Below the pieces are notes generated by a model, which saw only the letters and a program-made list of their open reading frames with translations, was not told the DNA's origin and made no database searches. The position numbers and the translations under genes were made by a program. A stretch of 40,000 nucleotides of DNA from Chromera velia (lineage: Eukaryota; Sar; Chromeraceae): contig JAHBMJ010000290.1 of NCBI GenBank assembly GCA_018398765.1, forward strand, positions 7,501-47,500, read 5' to 3'. This document shows, piece by piece, positions 2,636-39,959 of the stretch. Position 1 is the stretch's first letter. Every line of letters begins with the position of its first letter.

Positions 2636-5600
2636 TCATTCGCCCTGGCCATCGTCACTGCTGTCTATGATAACAAGAGAGTCAGGCTGAGAAGCGAGAC
2701 GGGAACTCCTGCGGCACGAGTTTGGTTCGTCCCTGTCCTTCTCGTTACTGGGATTCTTGTCTTTTCCTTCTTTATCCGCCCGATTTTTAGCGACTCTTTC
2801 TCCTCTTTCACCCGTTTGTACAGCATGGCCAGTCCCCTTTGCCGCTGCCGATGCCCGCGCTGCTGCTCTCCCTGGGGGCTTTCGAAGCGCCCTGGTAGCT
2901 GCGTTGAAGAGACCCTCACTTTCTCTCTCAAAATCAGCAACAACCGGGCCCTTCTGTCGGCTTGTTCCCGCTGTGGAACTGCGCTGAAAGTACGAAGAGA
3001 CTTTTCCTGTTTGGTCCCTTAGGCCGTTTTCTTGCTTCCCGTGCTTCAGCGCGGGAGCTCCCTTGTTCCCCCCTCGCCCCTGGGCATTCTCGTCTTTTTT
3101 CGGCTTTTTTGCGGGATTTCCACCATTCTTCCGCCCTTGTCCACCGCTGCGTGAGGAGGGAGCCGCAGGACGCTTCCGGACGGCTGCTGCTGCCGTGCAA
3201 TCACTGGAGCTCCCACGTTCTTCGTCATCTGAATTCAATGCAAGTTTTTTCTTTGCCGCCTCGTCTCTCTTCCTCTTTTTGGCATCTGCTGCTGCCTGAG
3301 CTGCCGCCTGCCGCTTTCGGAGCTTTTCGCTCTCTTTCGCCCTCTTGGTCTCCTCCCGCTCTCTTTCTCTCTCAAGCCGTCGTCTCTTTTGCTCCTCCAC
3401 ACTCTTCAGTTGGTGACAGACTCTGCAGTCAAGCAGGAAGAGTGCAAAAAAACTTTGCACACTTTAACGAGGTATATAGCTTCAATGTCAGGTTCAAAAA
3501 CATATGTTAGAGGAGGGGAAACCTCCACTGAAAGGTGAGCCTGCGCGAAATGTCTGTGCTGTTGTGTCAACACAAGAAGCTGTCGTATACAAAACGAAAG
3601 CAACAACTACGAGATCTCACAAACTGAATCCAACACAAACTATTCTGCATGACATACGTGCAAAGCGTCTGGAGATTCATTAGCCCACACTGGCCTCCTC
3701 CACAGCTGACGGGCTGGATATGGTCAGCGTGCCACGCCCTTCCCTCCGCAGGGCTCCTCACGAGGAGGGCCAAGAGCGCACGATGGAAGCGGAACCGTGG
3801 CGCTCTCTGGAGGACCAGTCGCTCTCTCTCCCTCACATCCCGGAGCCCTCTCAGGGCCTGGACAAGAGCGTGACAGTCCAACCCGCATTTGTTGCAGACG
3901 CCCTTCTCGAGCTGGAACAGCTGCATGCATGGTCAATTCAGACAGGAAGATCAGAGGGAATCAGATCAGAAAGAGTGCTTTCTTTCCCCTGTGAAAAAAA
4001 GAACCGTACCTCGGGCTGGTCTTGTTTTCTGTTGAATTCTTTCTTTTGCCGTTTGTCGGAGGAGAAAAAACAAAAGGACTTGGCCAAGGAAGAGGAAACG
4101 TAAACAGAAATTGGGCGTGACAAGACAAGTGCATTCTTTGAGAAAGATGGATAGAAATCAACATGTGCACCCCAATGCATCACCCCTCATCTGCCCCTTC
4201 CGTTTGACCCACCTGTCTCCGGATACTTCCAGCACTACGAGCAGCGAAGAACTCGGCCCTGCACGCCCCCGAACAAAACAGATCTTCCTCTGTCGCAACT
4301 ATCACTTCTGCCTGCCCATCCCCCTCACCATCTTTCACACCACTGCCCTCCCTACACCCAGGGCTACCGCCCTCGACCCAGGAAGGGTTATTGCACACCG
4401 ACACAGGTGCACTCGGGACAGCGCCCTCTTTCTCTTCAATGGACATCCCCCTCTCCTCATACTCTTCTGGTTCTGACTCATCAAAACGAAGCACAGACAG
4501 AGAACTCCCCCTTCTCTCTCGAGGGGGACTGGCCGAGGGGCTCTCTCCGAAGAAACGTGAACTTCGACGGCGCCCCCTGGAGGACAAAGAGAAAGAAGCC
4601 GACGGGGCTTCCGGGGGTTCTAAAATCATGACCGAGTCTGTCGATTCTCTTTTTCTGCTTTGCCGTCTCCCCGTCTCCAATAGAACCACAGAGGAAGAGG
4701 AGACGGAGGCAGACCTGGCCGACATCCGTGCTGCTGCTGCTGCTGCTGCTTCTTCCACCTTTTTCTCCCTTTCCCCTTCTCCTTCTGTATTCTTCTGACC
4801 AGCAGATTCTCCTCCGAGTGTCCTCATGCACTCAAGACACAGGGCCCCCCTGCCCCCCGCCCCAACTCCCTGCCGGAAACTCACCGCCCGGCCGAGACGG
4901 CTATAGTATACACTGACGGTGCGCCAAGAACATTCGGAGGGGAGACGGGCATCATCCTCTTCGTCCTGCGGTCTTCGAAATCGAACGAAACAGGCCCCCC
5001 CACCCCCTCTCTTGGACTCGTTCAGCTCCTCTGCGGCAGCTAGTGATGCTTCGAGAAGGGGGGGTCTGGAAGGTCTATCACGCAGACACCTTCTCTGATA
5101 GGGAGTCAGGACTTCCCATTCCTTCAAAAACCTTGCTGCAGCCTCACGAATCGCACGAGCCCCCCTGACTGCCTCCCGATCCCCCCCAAGACCTAGGTCC
5201 TCCCTCTCCTGCCCCCCCTCCACCTTCCCCTTCCCCTCTACTTCTTCGTCCTCCCTCCCACCCAAAAGCTCCTCAGGAAGGTATGAGACTCCTGCAGGCT
5301 TGGAGCCGTCTGGGAGGAGGTGGACGTGCACTCTCGTAGTGTAAGGAGAAACCTCAAACCAGAGGCCGTCGGGGGCAGTGACTGGGCTCTCAGCGCACTC
5401 AGAAGCACTTCCTGTCCCCCCATCCCCAAAGTCAATGGTCTCTCGTTCTGGTTCGACATCCATAAACCCAAATTCAACTCTAGTGCTTTCCTCTCCATCA
5501 TCTACACCCTGTCTAATTTCTGCATCTTCTGCACACTCTTCGAACGAAAACAAATCATTCTGGGGTTGCGTCTCGCAAAGCCAACGCTCATCTGGATCAT

Positions 5601-6307: not shown

Positions 6308-9300
6308 AAAGAAAGAAAGAAAGAAAGAAAAGAAAGGAAGGAAGGAAGCAAGGAATGAAGAAATGAATGGGGGAAGAAACGAAGAGAGGGAAGAAGAAAT
6401 GAAACAGAACCACAAAATTGCCATAAAGAAAAACAAAAAGACCCGCCCATTCATTCTTCATATTTCCTTTCCTCAATCGATCCATCAGTCAGAACAGTCT
6501 AGTCGCCCGGGGCGGCTTTCGTGTGTAGCCAATTCTATTCCATGTCCAATCAGAGGCTCAACCATAAACAGATGAGATCTGTTTGGATGCGAGTTTTTCC
6601 TTCCCGCATGACTGCCTGCCTTCCTGACGTATTTACTTACTGCGTCTGTCCTCTTCGGTGCATTCGTGCTTCTGCCTGCTGGAGCCATCCCGCATCCAGG
6701 GGCATCTCGAAGAAGAACCCAACGGAGGCCCCACTCAAATCCACACCCAGACTGCAGGCAGTGATCGACACCAGCGCCACACGACACACGCCTCCCCTGC
6801 CGCCAGACACACACACGGACGCGGAGGTAGGGGAAGGGGGCCCAGGGCTGTCCCCACGTGTGCTGACACTGCCAGAGCCGGAGACGGGCTCAGCGTTGAA
6901 GCGTCTGAAGAGGGCCTGCCGAGTGATGGGAGGGGTGCCTCCATCAACACGGATGTAAGAGGACTTCCACTCACTTGTCGCCAAAAGTTCCTGAAGGCAA
7001 GCAGGTGGTCAGATGGTTTTTTTTTGAATTCAGAGAAGAGCCGTCGATCGGAGAAGTAATGTTGCAGCGTGTAAGCAGTCTGGTCAGAGCTCGAAGAAGC
7101 CACTCCACAGAAGAAGGCAAAAGGATCAACGTGCGCCCTTCTTGACTTCACGACGTTTGGGATCGTCGAGAAACTCCACGAAAGTCTTCACGGGAGCCGT
7201 TTAACGAGAAGGTGGAAGGAACGCGAGAGAGTGGAAAAGAGGACAGACAACGAATGAAAGGGAAAGTGAATGCGAGTCAATTAAGAAAAGAAACCCACCT
7301 CAAGGCGGTCCATGACCCTCCGGTGATGCGCAAACAAAACAAACTTTGTGCCAGCCGGAGCCCCCTTCATTTTGTCCTGTACCCAATCCCACCCGCCCAT
7401 CACCTTACAAATAGCGCAACTCTCAGCGGAAGTCTTCACTGTTGCACGCTCCCGACACCACCATCGAACGGGAACGGCTGAATCAGAAAATGCAGGAGAA
7501 GAGAGAGACCTGTTGGGTTCACGAAATCCCTCCTTCTCAAACACGCCAGATGAAGCAGCAGAATGTCCACGCGCCCTCATACTGGCCGTTGAGGGGGCAG
7601 CACGACTACTTGCACTTTCGTGCTGCTGTGTACACCTGGAGCCCCCCCGTCCATCCTTTCTGGAGGCCCCAGCGGGCAGAGGCGCCGATTTCACTCCTCT
7701 TCTGTTTCCGTTCATCTCTTGCTTGGGCTGCCTCTTCCCAACCTCCGTTTTGGGCGGAGGGTTATACCCGATATCCGTCATGTCACCTTCCGACATTCTG
7801 GCTTTTTGTTCTTCTTCTTGTGTTCTCCCTGATGGGGGGCCTTTTTTCTTTCTCTTTTGGGTCTTCGGGGGCGGATTGTACCCTATGTCCGTCATAGAGT
7901 CCTCCTCCAAATCTCCCCCCCATTCCCCAACCTCCTCTTCATCCTCCTCCAAACCCAACGACCTCCTGAGTCTGCTGAGCTCCTCAGAGTGAAATCTCTC
8001 TGACTCGTCATACATCCAATCGGTCTCTCCGGGAAGACCATCACCACCCTCTTCAACCACCCCCGACCTGCTTGCTTGGCTGTTTGCACCCCCTTCATTT
8101 TCTCTCAGGAAGGAGACAACGGAGTTTCTTGTCAACAAACGGAGCAGTGCGCGTCTGTCAAGGGCAATTGGGACAATCTGACGACGCAGAGGAGGGAGCT
8201 CCCCCATGACGTCGCTCTTCAGTCTCCGGATCATCACGGCGCTCTTCAGGAGAAGGTGCAGCTCCCACGAACGCGAGCACGTCGAGGGCTGCCAGTGACC
8301 GAACGAAGTTGTCTTCATGTCGCAGTACTCCGAGGCAAACCTAAGTCATCGTGCGGGCAGGGAAGGGAGGTATGGTTGAGGGGAGAAACTAGACATATCA
8401 ACCAAAGGAGGGCGGAACGGACCTCATTTCTTCTCTCTCAGTGTGAGAGAAGAGCTGACCAAACAAAAGTCTCATTCTACATTCACTGTTCCTGCCTGCT
8501 CTTTGCCTTCTGTCCTGCAAACCTGCACCTTGAATCAAATAGGCAACAGAAACAAAGAGCCTCTGCCCTCCCTCATGCAGAAAGAAAAAAACGTCTGCAC
8601 TTCTGAAATACCCCAATCGCAAGCGGCTCCTTTCGAGTGCAGAACCACTGATGACCCCTGTAATAGCCTTCTCCCGACAGACCAACCTGTCTTTGCATGT
8701 AGACAGCATGCCCGGACGGAGGGTGTCCATCTGCATGCGCGTATACGTGAAACAAGGGAGCGACAAAGGCTGTCTGTCTGACACACAGATTGTAAGCAGA
8801 CAGGGAGGCATGGAGGCAGGGAGGAGGTGTCTCGAGAGATGAAGAAACACTTCAGAAAGCATTAAGTGCGAGAAGCTTTTTTTTGCGTGGGTGCATATGC
8901 TTACTTGATCTGAAATGCCAACGTGGTGTGCAGATTTTTCATGCACGGTTCCATGAATGGATTCGCGAGTGCCTTCAAAATGAAGTCACACGTCTCGCTC
9001 GTTTCTTTGTCAAACGCGCGAATAAAACAAAAAGGGCCAAAGCGACACAAACAAAGAGGGTACATGAAAAAGGGAGAGATGCAGGAGTGCACCCATCGGT
9101 CCGCACGCTCTTGCATCCTCCAGTCACGTTTGTGAAAGCCTTTTTGACAATTTCGCTTCACTCTCTTTTCCTTCCGCACACGACACCTGCAGGTGCCTCA
9201 AGCCCCTCCCGACCCCAGTGCAGAGACATAAGCAGCGCGACAGGCACGAATCCCATCAGGAAGTAGCAAACCCACCTGTGCGAACATGTCGAAAGGCTTC

Positions 9301-31791: not shown

Positions 31792-34535
31792 TCATTTCCA
31801 ATCTCTCTCAGAATTTCTGCCATCTTTTTGATTCCCTCTCTTACGCACTCGTGTCTTCTGCTTCCCCTCCAGCTCGAGGGCTGTGAACGCAGCCATTTGC
31901 TCCACTGGCCAGGGTGCGTTCGCATCTGCACGGCGGAAGAAATAACAAATCGAGAGAGAAAATGGTTCTAGAACCTCGTGAGAGACAGGGTGCAAAGTGG
32001 AGAGGAAAAGAGAGGAGGCAGACGGGAGACACTTTCATCTGACTGCTTTCTTCACGGTGGCGGAGGAAAACACCGTATACCAAGGAACCGGTATCAAGTA
32101 CGCGGACGGGTCACATGCAGACGACGAGAAAATGCCCCTTTATTCAATGTTCTCCTCGGTTCCCTCTGTCATGGATGGCTCTACATCCGGTCCCCCACCA
32201 CAGGATGTCCAAGCTATCTACTTCTCCGCGCCTTGATTCACACGCAGCTTCATCCTGTCCACACGCACGATGTATTTGCACACAGACACGCTTGGCTAAG
32301 TTCGTTTTTGAAACAAACAATGCATGTCTTGATTGATGGTCCACACAACTCACCAGGCTCCCCGCTGTACAGCTGTATTCTATCCACGCAGGTGCCCCCG
32401 CCGGGTTTCATCACGCGTGGTGGTTTAAAGTCCTGTCCGAAGTAACACGTGCAGGCCCCGCAGGGCCCCGGCAACTGGTCCAGAGAGGTCGGCTCGTCGA
32501 ATCCCATCGAGTCTGCAAAGTGCTCTCGTTGGGCCTGAGTCATTCGGCCTTCAATCTCTAAAATCTGCATTCATGGATCAAAAGTGGCAAGCAAAAGTCA
32601 GGGAAAGAGACAGAGACAGAGAGAGAACAAAACTCACAAGGAAAAAAACACCTTTTCAAGAATTTTGCATGTGGTGTTTCATCTGTCCAAACACACCTGC
32701 ATGTCCAATTTTTGACACCCCATTCCCACACGAAGTTACACAACGACAAGAAGCACTTGATGATCTTGCTATACAAAAGGTCCATCAAGCCCTCTATCGG
32801 AAGAAATCGGAGAGGGAGACGCTCTTCTATCATGACGGTCTTTTACTAAGAGAAAACTGGCATACATACAGGCAGAGCGACCAAACTAGCCACCCCACCT
32901 GTGCAGCTCGAGAGTTCAGTGCCAGCCCCTTCATGTCATCCACAAGGACCCCGTACTTGATCGAGAGATGCGCAATCAGGAGCTTCATCAAAGTCACCAC
33001 GGCAATCAAACTCACCTGCAATCACACCCCAATATGCAGAAAGACGGCAATAGAAATCCCGTTTGGTTGCTGAGTCAAACAACACGTCAGAGAGGTTACA
33101 TGGAAAGAGAGCCGAAGACACGATGTAAAAATGAGTTTTGGGTTCACAGACAGCGGCAGGAGACGGGCATCAAGTCAAGCTTCTGGGGTTGCTTCTCTTC
33201 GGCAGCTGTATGGGCACAATACGACTGTCACCCAGCCTGCCTGCCTGCCTGTCTGAATGACCAACTGACTGACTGACTGACTGTCTGACTGACTGCCTGA
33301 CTGTCTGACTGACTGACAAGGATGAAGGAGAAGTGCCAGAGCAGAACCAGGTGCCGCCCCTCCCAATCGGGGAACCAAATCTTCAGAACACCAACCCACA
33401 ACGTCATGACTGTGCGGTCGTATCTGCAGACAGTCATGCATGACAGGCCAAGACAGAAACGAAGACCGGAGCAAAGAAAGCGACGAAAACTCTCATGACG
33501 GAAACACACAAACGCATGCAGACAACATTGATTTCTCACTCGTACAATGGATCAAGCCATGTTTGAGAAAGTGTGTGTTTCTCGCTCAGATTCGCTCTCC
33601 GACTTGACGAGATGTCTTCACACAGAAATATTGGTGTGCCCAATCACTCTTTTGACCAGACTCTGGTTCGATGCTCCTCATACGGATTTTCCGAATCTCT
33701 GCTGTCATCAACGAATAATCGGCAAGGGTCCAGGTCTTCCAGACGCAGAGACAGGATGCTGCATGCGTACATTTGGTCGGCGTGTTGGATTTTCTTCCAA
33801 AGGGACGGACTGACTGACTGACTGACTGACTGACTGACTGACTGACTGACGATTCGAATTCGATGAGAGGGTCGATGAGAGAGGAGACCTGGACTGCTGA
33901 GGCGAAGGCCAACACGACGAGGAGCTGCAGCAGTGCAGTCAGGACGCGGTGAAACAACAAGCAAAACGGTGTGTGTGTGTGTGTGTGTGTGTGTGTTGAA
34001 AGACAGAGGGAGACGCACAGAGAGAGAATGACGGGAAGCGCACGAGTGGCGCTTAATAGTCAGTGCTCTTTATATTCTTCATTTTCTTCCTTCCTTCTCT
34101 CCTTCACGCCTTCTCCCGTCTTCTCTCTAGCGGTCTAATAATCGAGAGAAGAGACCACACCGCCATCGAGAGGGGAAAGTGTCGCGTCTTTCTAATGGAT
34201 TGAATTGAGACACACAAAGAGGAACACAGGTGGACCGATAGACTGAAAAATTCACTGACCACAAAGAAAAGGATGTGAATAATCTCTCCAACGAACAAAG
34301 CGACTGCTGCTTTCACCCCCGCAATGCTGTCCAGAGTCAGGAGCACCTCCATCGAGAGGAGCCATAGGAGGAGGCCTGCACTGGCTGCTCCTCGTTCAAG
34401 CGCTGTGGATATCTGGAAGGTATCTCCGGGGACCTGCATGCATGAGCAGTATCTATCAAACGGGTACATGACGACGTCGAGAGATTTGACTCAAATGAAT
34501 GAATCAATGAGTAAATGAAAGAGACAGAGAGAGAA

Positions 34536-34580
<45 letters not shown>

Positions 34581-37187
34581 AGAGAGAGAGAGGCGGCAAA
34601 ACTCATTTGAAAAAGGAGAAAGAACAAACAAGCCAAATATAGGACGAAAGAAGCAGAGAAGAATCAGAAGCAGTCCGACGGACCGTCACGTCAAACGACT
34701 GCCCTCCAAGTTCCAATCCCGCAGCACTGCAAAGAATTATACTGCAGGCAGGCAGGCAAGCAAGCAAGCAGAAAGTTCTCAGTATCGACACAGTTTTTTC
34801 TCTGCTTCATTGACTGCCCATTATGCTCTGGAGCCACCGACGTGCAGCCTTCTGACCTTCACACAGCATTCATTTCAACAGTGTGAACAAAACTACCCTC
34901 TTCCACTCGCTTGCGTCAATCCCTTCTGACAAACTGACGTACCTCGCGACAACTCTAGACCAGTTGAAGAAGGAGACCATCTGGAGAGGAATCCATCCAG
35001 AGACCGTTCGGGAATGAATTTGAGCTGCAGGGAATAAAAAAGGGAGAGAAGAGGATACAAGAAAAGCAGAAAAAGTTCTGATTAACGTCTGCAGGCCTGC
35101 CGCAGTCCGACCTTCTCCCCCTCCTCATACCCTTCAGCCTTCAGCTCTCCAGGGACTTGCGCGTTCCTTTTGGGCCGCAAGTTGATATGAGGCGTCCGTC
35201 GTTCGAGGAAGCATGGGAACGCATTTTGTAAAAGGAACAGAAACAAGTCTAGAAAGCGCAGAAAGGGTGTGTCTCTTGGCGATGTCTGCATATCGACTGA
35301 GAAGCTTTCTCCCTCACTCCACCCCCTTCTCCTCTCAATGATGTTCATACTTTCATTCTCCCACTCATTTCTCTGTACACCGACCACAAGCCGACCAACC
35401 AATGCTGATCTGCACATGCCAGATCCCGTACCCCAAGCCGATCACCCAGGAGACAGCCCGAAAGCCGAACGCGGGTGTGCTCAGACGGTCGAGGAGATTG
35501 TACCCCAAAGTGAAGCACAGCAACTGCACATGCGGACGTGCACGTACAAAGGAGTTAAGCAGACCAGCTGGAAACAAAGGGTTTAGATGCGAATCAATAT
35601 TGCTATGAAAGGAATAATATCGGTATACATTGAATGATTCTTTCCTCTTCACAAGATTTCTCAAAAGGTCCATAAGAGCTCTTCAAACAAGTAAATCCGA
35701 AAGCTACGCACATGCAGTGCACATGAAAGGCAAGCTTCGAATGAGAAGACTGCTCGTCTCTCGCGCCCACCGTCCACCCAGCGCCCACCCTGACGTACCT
35801 GAAAAAGGTAGAGGCATTGAAGACGAACAAACTTTCTCTTTCCGTAAAGTTCCCATTTTTTCCCGACGATGAATTTGATGACCTCATGATTCGACACCTG
35901 TGGATCGCGCAGACGCACCAACGCCCCGAGAGGAGTATCCAGCACGGTCCGCCCGCTTGCTTGGTGTCTGGGGTCTCCCCACAGTTCCCGGATCCAGAAT
36001 ATAACCTGTCTCCTTCCTTTCTGGACCTTCTCTGAGCACCACATGTGGCCGTCAAAGAAGGGAAAGAGCAGCTGAGGAGCTTCCTTGCACAGTTTTGCAA
36101 CAATGTCCGGGTGGGACTCCCACATTTCGTCCCTGCAGGAATTTTTCAAAACAAGGAAGCTGTAACGAACAGAACTAAGTAAAAAGAAAGACAAGAGCAC
36201 ACAAGATGCACATGACGCGGCATATGCCCAAATCGAATCCGTCAGGGCGCACAATCAATGCAGGCAGGCAGGCATCGATGGGAACAAAAACACATGCAGC
36301 CAGAGATGGGCTCACAGAAAGAAAGATGTCATGATTGAGTGAGAAAATTCCAGAGGACAGATTGGCGCAGAGAGAGAATGGGTGCATGCAGGAGTGCTTC
36401 ACTCAGCTGCCGACCTCCCATAATAGAGTCTGAAGCCGTCACCACGGAGGGAGAGGCAATCTCGAATGAGAAGTTCTGCAATTTTCGCTTTGCCCTCTCG
36501 AAGGGCCCTGCACGCAGTCAAACAATCACGTGCTAAGTTGTTATTCAAAATCTCAGTCAAAGAATGACACGTGGAAATGACCCAAACCGTCTCATAAAAA
36601 CAGAGAGCAAAAACACTCGGACCTGAGACCTCAAAATTATTCCGGACTGAAAGGAGCATTCAGCTGACCAGTAGAGCGGGCTTTGTTTGTCGCCGTGGAT
36701 GTCCACCTGGCAGCATGCTTTCGCTCTGTCTTTGCGACTCTCCGAGTCGAGACCATCCAAAAGAATGCGCCTGCATGCAACGGTCAACGAATCTCCTTAC
36801 GCACGCATGCAGAAACAAGAGGCCGCCTTTTCCATTGGAATCCACTTAGAGATAGAAGCCGGAATCGACGGTTGTTTTATGAAAGAGACTCCTCAAGCAG
36901 ATGGAATGAGTCAACTGGCCTTTCTGGAACCTTTTTCCCTCCCCCTCATTTGTACATGGTCCGGGAACCAACAAAGGTGTATGATATGCACAAACGGAGA
37001 GAAAACTCCTCGACAGGCAAAGTCTGAGATCACCGCTGCCTCCAAATGCCCACCCAAGCACCCATGCACCTGTCGTTTGCAATGAGGGCCTTGACGATCG
37101 GTTGATTTCCGGCAGAGATCATCGACCGGAGGTCCTTGGTTGTCTGCAATCGTGTTCAACCATCCATCCATCCATCCATTCATACAC

Positions 37188-37221
<34 letters not shown>

Positions 37222-37230
37222 ACACCCACA

Positions 37231-37281
<51 letters not shown>

Positions 37282-39031
37282 GCTTCGATGAAGGATTCGA
37301 CCACACGAAACATGGAACCGATCAGGGCCACATGTAGAGAGGGACAACAGAGAAGCAATAGAAAACCCAGAGAGAAGAAATGTGAAAGAGACAAGAGCAA
37401 AGCGCATCTATCACATGGAAGGAAAAGACAGGAGGAAGTTTTGAAGTAGTCATGGAGGGAAAAAAAGCCACGGAAATAGCAGCGACTCGTTTCTCATGGG
37501 GTAGGCGCTGCCGACAAATCAATAATTCTTTTTTGTAAACCCAGAGAAAGAATCCAGGGACTAGTCAGACCGAAAGCAGGCATCGGTAAAGGTTGTCGCC
37601 AATGAAAAAATGATTTGCACGAAGACATTATTGCTGGCAGGTATTTCATCTTTCCAACAATACCAAGGGGCACTTCAAGGGGGGGCACGCAGAGAAGAAA
37701 GAACAGAAAAATCAAGTAGAGACCCCCCAAAAGGCTGAGTACACGCACGCAGGACCGATTGAGACAGGACAAGAAAAGAAAGAGGAGAACGATCCAGAAT
37801 GAAGCTACGCGAGAAGAATGGAATTTCACTGACGATTTTCCAAAAGTCCGTCCAGCTCTCCTCGTGCTTCTCTGTCCATCTGTCTCCTAAAATGTTCCTC
37901 AAAGTTCTGCAGGGAGGGAGGCAATCAGCAGCTGGCCTTCGGTCCTCTGGTCCCTTTCCCCCAGAGTCTGTCTGCGAATCCCTTTGTGAATGCTATGCAA
38001 AACGTTGTTGGTTTCACATACAAAGATAAGACAAACTGACAAATTGTTCCTCAAACAATGGAGAAGGCATCTCTCATCTGTGAACGTTCTGATTTGTCAT
38101 CAGCCAAAGGTCATCCTTTTCAGGCTTTCTCACATGTTCCACGAAAACTGAATTGGGGAAAGAAAATGAGTGTATCAACGAAGACCGGGGGCAGACAGAC
38201 CTCAGGAGCACAACCCCGAACACCGAGACGTCCTGAATTCTGACGCCCCAGATCACGTGACGCATCGCCAGGGATTTGTTTTCTCGCCAGATGAAAGCCG
38301 GACGCTCAGCAAATTCCAACAGAAGGCGAATCAAGTTGCCAAAGATTCTGTTGAGGCAAGGTGAAAAGAGAGCACAAAAAGAGCGCCACATCTGTTTATG
38401 CCAAGTCACTCAGTTTGATCTCTCTTTAATGTGAAAACCGACCCCTGCTCTTAATTCCAAACTTCATGAAATCCACTGCCACTTCACTATACAACGTTGT
38501 GCCTGCCTGCCGTCTAGCAGTCATGCATTCAGGGGACCCTGTTGTGTGTGTCAGGCAGGGATGGTATTGATGAATGATTCGAAGAATCAAGTATGATGAC
38601 AGACCAAGAGAGAGAACTGCATGGAGAGAATCCAGATCAGAGAGGGGAAAGCAGGGATGACAAAAGGGGCAAAACACACAACGAAAAGGCAGCCGATCCA
38701 CAAAACAAAAAAACAACGGGAGGGACCCTCTGAACGGAGAGAAAGAGAACGTACTATGTGACTTCGAAAGCGACCGAGTCAGCAACACAAAGTTGAGTTG
38801 AGATCTCATCAAGTCAGTAACACAAACTGAAGGATTCATAGTTTGCTGACCGAGGGTAGGCTTTTGTTGGCCGAATAAAAACTCTCCGGAGTGTCGGTGC
38901 AACGTGCAGCAGCGACTCAGTAAATTGAGCCCCAAAGTACTGCGAGGGGGACATGTTGAGACAAAAAGAAAGGCGTTCAACGTCATGAAATGCTCAATTA
39001 ATGCGCAGGAACAATGCCAGAGAGAGAGAGG

Positions 39032-39072
<41 letters not shown>

Positions 39073-39959
39073 CAATTACTGGGCCTGGATGGAAGCGCAC
39101 AAGGACTCGAGGAGATACAGGATGAAGCAATCTGCTGGTATGACTTCATGACGAGATCTCCCTTAGCCTTCTTCATGCAAGCAAATAAACGGGGGGGCAG
39201 CTGAGAATCAAGCTCCTCGGCACGACTTGACAGACATCAACTTGGTTGAACAGTCCCCCCCCCCCGGCTACCAAAGTGCGGGAGCTGAAAAGAGCAAACA
39301 CCCCCCAGGGCCCCCCGCCTCAAATTAAGACGGACCTGCAGGGCCCTATCCGATACGGGTTCTGATGTTTTCTGCGTGTCCCTCTTGGGGCTGTCGTCCG
39401 CTGCGGCCTCCCCAAAAGTGCCTAGGTTCTGCAGAAAGGAAGGAATAAGAGGCAGGAAGAGGCTCTTTTGCACGAACCTCAATGACATTCATTACACAAG
39501 GGTCCCTGCCTAGACCCCATGGAGCCTCCAGACGCTCATTCCGTTTTCTGCACAAAAAGCTGAGTGGACAACGACCATGGGATCCCCGCAAAAGAGGGCG
39601 TCATCCCGTGAGACTGATCGCGACACCAAGGTTCTTCTTTGCACAACACTCGGCAGGGATGGCGGTACATGAAATTGACATTGAACATGTCTCACACGCC
39701 AAGCAAACAAGAGTGGTGATGCGACGTGAAAAACGAGTCAATGTGTCGTCGATTTGCTCCTCTAAGTTTCAAAATGGCCAAAACAACGGCGAGAAGGACA
39801 CAAAGCGAATTGGTGAGGGGCCCGGAAAATTAAGAGACCCGTCAACTAAATGGAAAAATGACTTACGGTGAAGCCTGCTTGCCCTTCTTTGGCAAACTCT
39901 GTGTCCTGTTTGGTGTTCATCTTGAACAGGCTGGCGAATGACTGACGAACTCTCTGGAA
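31792..39959 (-). CDS. Globin-ankyrin-TRP-like cation channel fusion (5' end outside window)
   Basis: Exons: 39959-39867, 39428-39336, 38939-38851, 38347-38201, 37906-37834, 37143-37070, 36770-36669, 36507-36415, 36132-35799, 35523-35385, 35285-35157, 35024-34939, 34433-34260, 33924-33851, 33758-33684, 33423-33318, 33015-32899, 32564-32354, 31925-31792. Phases agree throughout; 780 residues lie in the window. Residues 63-165: globin. Residues 166-254: ankyrin-like repeats (DIHGDKQSPLYWALREGK, IAELLI). Residues 256-366: pre-S1 region ending HEVIKFIVGKKWELYGKRKF, as before S1 in TRP channels. Then S1 (YLFQLLCFTLGYNLL), a second hydrophobic segment, S4-S5 (AGLLLWLLSMEVLLTL; EIIHILFFVLLVVLAFASAV), pore helix (TVMTLWVGVLKIWFPDWE), S6 (VSLIAVVTLMKLLIAHLSIKYG) and a post-S6 helix NSRAAQILEIEGRM. 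The S2-S4 exons at 35523-34939 are the least certain. Likely a membrane cation channel with a cytosolic haem-sensor domain; gating is inference. Confidence 0.78.
32899..33423 (-). other. Pore helix and S6 of the channel
   Basis: Two phase-0-joined exons (33423-33318 and 33015-32899). Residues 593-627 hold a pore helix with an acidic FPDWE just after it, a possible cation filter. Residues 628-650 form a hydrophobic S6 ending LLIAHLSIKYG, close to the TRP/polycystin S6 pattern NLLIA..+..Y. Confidence 0.75.
33236..33317. repeat. CTGA/CTGC tetranucleotide array starting at a 5' splice site
   Basis: On the minus strand the intron begins GTCAGTCAGTCAGACAGTC, so the array starts at the first intron base after the pore exon (ends 33318). 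Confidence 0.9.
33807..33850. repeat. (GACT)11 array starting at a 5' splice site
   Basis: Eleven perfect copies. Read on the minus strand it is (GTCA)n or (AGTC)n, and the first base of the array is the first base of the intron after exon 33924-33851. It therefore offers a ladder of overlapping GTCAGT donor sequences. Confidence 0.93.
33969..33996. repeat. (GT)n microsatellite
   Basis: In the intron upstream of the S5 exon of the channel gene. Confidence 0.92.
34517..34592. repeat. (GA)n microsatellite
   Basis: On the minus strand a (TC)n tract in the intron before the S4 exon. The Ser/Leu-rich frame there is artefactual. Confidence 0.93.
37161..37275. repeat. (CATC)n-(CA)n-(GA)n compound microsatellite
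   Basis: In the intron between the last globin exon and the first ankyrin exon, ending about 18 bases from the acceptor. Confidence 0.95.
37834..38939 (-). other. Globin domain (three exons) of the channel gene
   Basis: Exons 38939-38851, 38347-38201 and 37906-37834. The B helix reads YFGAQFTESLLHVAPTLRRV and ends in the CD1 Phe (residue 83). SLAMRHVIWGV holds the proximal F8 His (122). The G and H helices read VSVFGVVLLRTLRNILG then WTEKHEESWTDFWKIV. From the F8 His on, it aligns with neuroglobin-class globins without a gap. CD1-to-F8 is about 11 residues shorter than in myoglobin, so either the CD/E region is shortened or a small exon in the 38850-38348 intron was missed. Confidence 0.8.
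39019..39070. repeat. (GA)n microsatellite
   Basis: In the intron upstream of the first globin exon. Confidence 0.93.

Follow-up and report, generated by a model that had tools for sequence, protein, structure and literature searches.

A globin joined to an ankyrin-like region and a TRPV-like channel in Chromera velia: a family of candidate haem-gated channels

We analysed a 40,000-nucleotide stretch of the Chromera velia genome (hereafter the window), which forms the right-hand part of contig C289 and ends where the contig ends. Its minus strand carries, from 39920 to 31792, a gene that almost certainly encodes a globin, an ankyrin-like region and a transient receptor potential (TRP) channel in one chain. 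The fusion in this gene is real and not an artefact, and the window and 18 other loci carry it as far as the first transmembrane helix (S1). With modest conviction, we lean towards the reading that C. velia has a family of TRPV-like channels, about 19 or more in number, that are gated by a haem-globin, some of them carrying two or three globins in series. The ligand or redox state of the haem would directly control the cation pore, sensor and channel being one polypeptide.

A single chain from globin to channel

As in the initial annotation, the exons lie on the minus strand and their phases match; they have GT-AG borders, and our first hand-built model has 19 of them (E1 to E19) and 737 residues. 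The evidence that globin and channel belong to one protein comes from a paralog. On contig C2621, a single uninterrupted frame of 487 residues runs from the globin through the ankyrin region and the pre-S1 linker into S1, and it matches the window model in blastp with 214 bits (E 4e-66, 32% identity over 302 aligned columns). For the family, this frame excludes a gene boundary between globin and ankyrin region independently of any splice model.

Used as the sole query for spliced alignment on the window, the C2621 frame returned E4 to E8 exactly; of the two flanking exons, E3 was matched at its 3' end and E9 at its acceptor. Because the query is a single open frame, these exons and exon ends are free of circularity; the check made with the channel halves of the paralogs, which were spliced under the guidance of the window model and then used to test the window, is partly circular. 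Moreover, with the same query the order of globin, ankyrin region, linker and S1 start recurred at 17 of 17 other loci, and each of the eight contigs first matched only in the ankyrin region or linker has a globin segment upstream on the same strand (E 0.033 or better). Globin-only spliced scores ranged from 98.9 to 198.1 in 18 sense loci (the 17 and the window), whereas none of 24 control strands or segments exceeded 75.6 (mean 53.9, standard deviation 8.8). In the paralogs, globin helix H passes into the ankyrin and linker region without a spacer.

The window taken by itself gives some room to the idea that two adjacent genes, one for a globin and one for a TRP channel, were misjoined across a 690-base intron containing simple repeats: this intron is the longest of the model, the frame of E5 stays open beyond its donor, and E6 holds an internal ATG. 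Against this, the junction lies within one open frame in C2621 and the order recurs at all 17 other loci, the eight contigs included. We regard misjoining as scarcely credible, and at the level of the family the sequences have already refuted it. A gene boundary between globin and ankyrin region, which the initial annotation had set between 37834 and 37143 as the finding that would overturn its single-chain reading, is contradicted by C2621 and the other loci and was rejected; the proposed order of globin, ankyrin-like region and TRP-like channel in a single chain is strongly supported.

The paralog family

The genome search covered 177.8 Mb in 4040 contigs, and all 18 other contigs from the match list of the window model were examined as ten-kilobase loci (L numbers below). 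Further candidates appeared as genome search matches only: C2176 and C2669 have globin and ankyrin segments, C1929 has the ankyrin region and linker with a short piece around the globin-ankyrin junction, and C1325 gave a single weak match (E 0.37). Two alignments of 11 members were built, one of which was searched against the protein database, and an alignment of the channel included seven members.

The close copies that we compared are under purifying selection. Among L047, L048 and L049, the ratio of nonsynonymous to synonymous substitution rates (dN/dS) is 0.03-0.04 over 58 globin codons and 0.04-0.05 over 145 codons of helix H and the ankyrin region, and between L042 and L044 it is 0.15 and 0.08, respectively; these are rough values, with dS near saturation, and they concern pairs within these two groups only. 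In L044 (contig C2153), an ankyrin exon is present three times in tandem (5392-5571, 6347-6526 and 7180-7359), each with the same translated match, which is either an alternative exon cassette or an assembly artefact. This triplicated exon, together with the position of the window gene at a contig end, would fit copies that were decaying or misassembled. Such an explanation is very improbable, since the spliced window model has no in-frame stop ahead of its end and dN/dS is 0.03-0.15 between close copies on different contigs.

In some family members, two or three globin segments may follow one another. When the profile was built without the locus under test, extra globin-like pieces were found upstream of the main globin, on the sense strand, in L034 (E 9.2e-5 and 0.0037; 514-618 and 1480-1572 in reversed-strand coordinates, which apply to all these pieces), L038 (2.3e-7 and 5.1e-4; 298-444 and 1729-1812) and L040 (3.7e-8; 2131-2346). 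Spliced scores of these upstream parts (L034 96.3, L038 87.7, L040 101.4) exceed the maximum of 63.1 among 42 antisense controls, and the upstream pieces of L038 and L040 retain the proximal (F8) His. Weaker pieces in L033 (0.026; 317-418) and L037 (0.16) are near noise, because antisense matches occur at E 0.069 or worse. A family-like globin query against the genome also gave upstream matches in C3646, C2259 and C2153 (E 0.03-0.14).

The genome contains a separate flavohaemoglobin gene as well (L001, 1405-2613), with one open frame that matches Pfam Globin (1.2e-14) and FAD_binding_6 (4.9e-6).

The globin

Model residues 44-153 match globins in PDB, namely 3wfw, a haemoglobin-like protein fused to Roadblock (E 7.9e-8), and 3ubc (E 6e-4), which bears out the globin domain of the initial annotation. 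A profile of 15 family globins matched 3ubc (2.3e-12), the flavohaemoprotein 1cqx (2.6e-9) and a bacterial haemoglobin (5.9e-7); profile positions 7-112 align with 3ubc without a gap from helix B to helix H, including Phe at CD1 and His at F8. The best 60 of 104 PDB matches (E<=1) all bear the name of a globin, haemoglobin, flavohaemoprotein or nitric oxide (NO) dioxygenase; none of these 60 is labelled a sensor globin or protoglobin, which gives no sign of the S lineage. The top matches are bacterial single-domain globins and flavohaemoproteins. Judged by match names and not by a tree, the globin of the window gene is assigned to the flavohaemoglobin (F) lineage of 3/3 globins.

Paralogs alone also locate the domain in the window. 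One globin hidden Markov model (HMM) has the window among its 15 rows, and a leave-one-out version removes each row in turn; the version built from 14 paralogs, with the window row excluded, found E3, E4 and E5 in order and on the correct strand, and nothing else in the 40 kb of the window at E<1. E3 (38851..38939; all exons given here are on the minus strand) encodes helices B, C and CD, with the CD1 Phe codon at 38879-38877 and a Tyr codon at the E7 position at 38858-38856; it lies within the PDB match, has an HMM E of 0.0012 and was recovered exactly with L034-guided splicing. E4 (38201..38347; E 6.8e-14) encodes helices E, F and G with the F8 His codon at 38259-38257, and E5 (37834..37906; E 5e-5) encodes helices G and H with a conserved Trp; both were exact in C2621-guided and in L034- and L036-guided splicing. 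Pfam Globin is matched by 12 of the 15 family members at E<=1 (best 1.1e-7), and NCBIfam, given the globin alone, returned flavohaemoprotein with E 0.0095 and 14.9 bits against a cut-off of 432.

In 19 models, in which the N-terminal helices are often incomplete and L044 and L045 are partly poorly modelled, F8 is His in all 19 and the helix-H Trp is likewise invariant. The CD1 residue is Phe in 15, Trp in three and Asn in one, whereas the E7-aligned position holds Tyr in 17, Gln in one (L039) and Ala in one (L044); Tyr does not occur in the B10 column of the family alignment (a residue in 12 members, a gap in seven). The F8 His codon is contiguous in the window and in 14 of the 18 paralogs.

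The ankyrin-like region and the channel

The region following the globin begins with E6 (37070..37143), whose first helices of the ankyrin-like region are joined directly to globin helix H, a junction that is uninterrupted in C2621. It continues through E7 (36669..36770; Pfam Ank_2 at residues 162-225, E 0.022) and E8 (36415..36507; an ankyrin-like repeat, Pfam Ank at 205-226, E 0.034), both matches being below cut-off; all three exons were exact in C2621-guided and in L034- and L036-guided splicing. Pfam Ank is found in three of 11 family members at E<=1 (best 0.0012); TRPV channels have a domain of six such repeats. By itself, the profile of the ankyrin and linker region matched the ankyrin domain of KIDINS220 (4e-4) and TRPA1 (0.013). 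Thus, of the ankyrin-like repeats in the initial annotation, the region stands and the plural is harder to sustain, because the signal is weak and one repeat is recognisable.

The TRP/polycystin-like core of that annotation also stands as a channel, and its best match is TRPV rather than polycystin. A seven-row channel profile, of which the window is one row, matched TRPV3 with E 5.3e-10 (profile 16-310 to 426-712, from S1 to the helix after S6), followed by TRPV1 (1.5e-8), OSM-9-like (2.6e-8), polycystin-2 (PKD2, 2.6e-8) and then TRPV5/6. In the helix after S6, the profile segment laraeqvleieaql is aligned to TRPV3 lqrartilefekml; the window has NSRAAQILEIEGRM there. Window residues 193-367, in the pre-S1 linker, matched TRPV6 (1.8e-4), TRPV5 (0.01) and weakly TRPA1 (0.24). 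In L039, two joined exons from S4 to S6 exceed the Pfam Ion_trans cut-off (32.9 bits against 25; 4.8e-8), and the second of them alone covers the end of S5, the pore and S6; S1 to S3 of this locus are not well modelled. From S2 onwards, 16 of 18 sense loci had spliced scores higher than any of 18 antisense controls (at most 120.8), the control being the opposite strand of the same loci, so that single-strand repeats could inflate the sense scores. On the strength of these matches, the channel half is classed as TRPV-like, with S1 to S6, a pore loop and a TRP-like helix.

Most channel exons were checked by splicing with L034 and L036 as guides, the two paralogs whose channel halves are well modelled from end to end; several others hold low-complexity or intron noise. 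E9 (35799..36132) encodes the DGHxWCS region, the ELWGDP segment, the pre-S1 linker and the start of S1; its start was exact with the C2621 query and both ends with both guides. E10 (35400..35523; S1-S2) was exact with both guides and is 56% identical to C3831 over residues 351-402, and E11 (34943..35024; S2-S3 loop and start of S3) was exact with both. With the L036 guide, E12 (34684..34741; S3) and E13 (34260..34433; S4, seen by hydropathy, and start of S5) were exact; with the L034 guide, only the start of E12 and the end of E13 agreed. Both guides gave E14 (33851..33924; S5), E16 (33318..33423; pore helix, filter region VLKIWFPDWEG and start of S6, within the TRPV3 match), E17 (32899..33015; S6 and start of the TRP-like helix, 53% identical to C3831 over 572-626) and E18 (32354..32564; end of that helix and C-terminal domain) exactly. 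E19 (31792..31925) contains an APWP motif, the C terminus and the stop codon; its start agrees with both guides. A single L034 exon spans parts of the equivalents of E17 to E19, the APWP motif and the E18 equivalent being together in it, and this supports the joins between these exons.

Gene ends, rejected exons and neighbouring features

Homology gives no support to the first two exons. E1 (39867..39920; MNTKQDTEFAKEGQAGFT) is a tentative N-terminal exon defined by an open frame and a GT donor only, and E2 (39336..39428), a tentative exon preceding the globin, by GT-AG and phase only. The assumed ATG stands 80 bases from the contig end, in a frame that is still open there, and is therefore a provisional 5' end of the gene.

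E15 (33684..33758), an in-frame exon of 25 residues in the first model, was rejected as a firm exon, being skipped in splicing with both L036 and L034 as guides, and it is probably not used in the gene. Also rejected was a further exon that would lie between E10 and E11 (35248-35132): it has no proper in-phase donor and is missing from paralog-guided splicing.

Runs of GTCA-like repeats stand at the start of some introns (in the window at 33850-33807 and from 33317 on, and in L035 too), so that the 5' splice signal itself is inside a microsatellite. Inspection by eye suggests a further small gene beside the channel gene, at 29705-28080 on the minus strand; its start resembles a signal peptide (MKSLAFVLLLFAMITLSLMG) and its last exon is Cys-rich.

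Weighing the readings

The globin probably binds haem through the conserved F8 His. In an alternative view, it is a haemless or signal-independent module for assembly or protein contacts, and the channel is gated otherwise. Non-haem sensor globins are a precedent for such a module; the distal residues of the family are unlike those of the closest solved globins, and the TRPV-type linker already present could receive other inputs. We consider this unlikely, because F8 is His in 19 of 19 models despite a mean column identity of 38% in the 15-member globin alignment (which leaves out L044, L045, L048 and L049 as partial, poorly modelled or near-identical), and 18 of 19 carry Phe or Trp at CD1.

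Kinship with F-lineage globins, NO dioxygenases among them, would also suit a globin that acts as a local enzyme at a membrane channel, for example as an NO dioxygenase or peroxidase, and leaves the gate uncontrolled. This is improbable, for no reductase domain came up in the Pfam scan of the window model, a separate gene of the genome encodes a flavohaemoglobin, and the globin meets the linker without a flexible spacer. We retain, as partly supported, the proposal of the initial annotation that this is a haem sensor which would link gas or redox state to ion flux; the invariant F8 His and the strong conservation agree with it.

Besides the roughness of the substitution ratios, several results weigh against a haem-gated TRPV-like channel. 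Pfam scans of the window's own sequence gave neither Globin nor Ion_trans (E<=10, and E<=1 in a separate scan), both of which the initial annotation had expected on the spliced protein, and Ank was sub-threshold, with a single recognisable repeat; the Globin and Ion_trans assignments of the window gene rest on PDB searches and on paralogs. Window residues 453-628 (S4 to S6) alone matched no TRP channel in PDB. In an exon-wise Pfam scan of the genome, none of 55 Ion_trans matches at E<=0.001 falls within the 18 ten-kilobase family stretches, which indicates that such a scan misses the family. From S2 onwards, L046 (116.7) and L048 (104.8) score below the control maximum and L035 (131.6) barely above it. 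No helix A was recognised in the globin: the PDB alignments begin near helix B, and a conserved stretch ahead of it occurs only in some paralogs. In L042 to L045, a modelled splice junction splits the F8 His codon, at a position where the guiding query has His, and helices G and H of L045 are poorly modelled. The pair of B10 Tyr and E7 Gln, which we take to be a trait of the closest globins (the E7 and B10 labels for 3ubc being likewise assumed), is absent in the family, and ligand chemistry is therefore not transferable from them. Finally, no homolog outside this genome was obtained from the full model, the 11-member alignment or the globin alone in protein database searches that scored 7994, 7996 and two word-sharing candidates, respectively, and that are weak for intron-rich eukaryotes. 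An AlphaFold2 model of contiguous E9, made without an alignment, had a mean predicted local distance difference test score of 40.7 and was not used.

Proposed mechanism and significance

Taken together, the window gene probably encodes a single-chain TRPV-type cation channel with an F-lineage 3/3 globin at its N terminus, which by homology would be cytosolic, and we find gating of this channel by the state of the haem similarly plausible. Under this model, the globin would take haem through the conserved F8 His, and ligand exchange or a redox change of the iron would shift helices F and H. Their movement may strain the linker beneath the membrane, which would open or close a tetrameric, probably Ca2+-permeable pore. 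The extra upstream globin-like segments in several copies may tune or combine inputs.

In eukaryotes, oxygen and NO are sensed mostly via enzymes and slower transcriptional routes. A globin within a TRPV-type channel would, if confirmed, couple gas or redox state rapidly to membrane potential and calcium, so that the family looks like a putative direct conversion of oxygen, NO or redox state to an electrical or calcium signal. It could also give a genetically encoded gas-gated channel. The size of the family (the window, 18 loci and more candidates) suggests importance to the organism.

The component parts are known, and no earlier pairing of globin and ion channel was found among the matches listed in full-text literature, a coverage outside which most subscription papers fall. 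In the portions accessible, the main text of the Chromera genome paper does not contain the terms ion channel or globin (PMC4501334), a paper on dinoflagellate haemoglobin does not contain channel or fusion (PMC3631397), and no globin-channel protein appears in PMC3520999. The accessible part of a 2006 census divides chimeric globins into two groups, flavohaemoglobins and globin-coupled sensors, and notes that the latter are absent from eukaryotes (PMC1457004).

If the model holds, an ion channel would join the known outputs of chimeric globins.

Comparison with known systems

With TRPV channels (best TRPV3, then TRPV1, Inactive, OSM-9-like and TRPV5/6), the family shares an ankyrin-like N terminus, a pre-S1 linker, S1 to S6 with a pore loop and a helix after S6. 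It differs from them in the globin ahead of the ankyrin region, in a filter sequence of its own and in the C-terminal APWP motif, and the window gene has only one recognisable ankyrin repeat.

With F-lineage single-domain globins and flavohaemoglobins (3ubc, 3wfw, 1cqx and 1vhb, presumably including Hell's Gate globin I and Vitreoscilla haemoglobin), the family shares helices B to H, the CD1 Phe and the F8 His. In contrast to these globins, it has Tyr rather than Gln at the E7 position and no Tyr at B10, and it is fused to a channel; the C-terminal FAD/NAD reductase domain of flavohaemoglobins did not appear in the Pfam scan of the full window model.

Androglobin, a fusion of globin and calpain, is likewise a eukaryotic chimeric globin; as far as the accessible descriptions of it go, the family differs in having its globin helices in the normal order and not permuted, and the Pfam scan of the full window model found no calpain domain. 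Like the globin-coupled sensors of bacteria and archaea, the family has an N-terminal globin positioned to drive an output domain, whereas its globin is of the F lineage, its host is a eukaryote and its predicted output is an ion channel.

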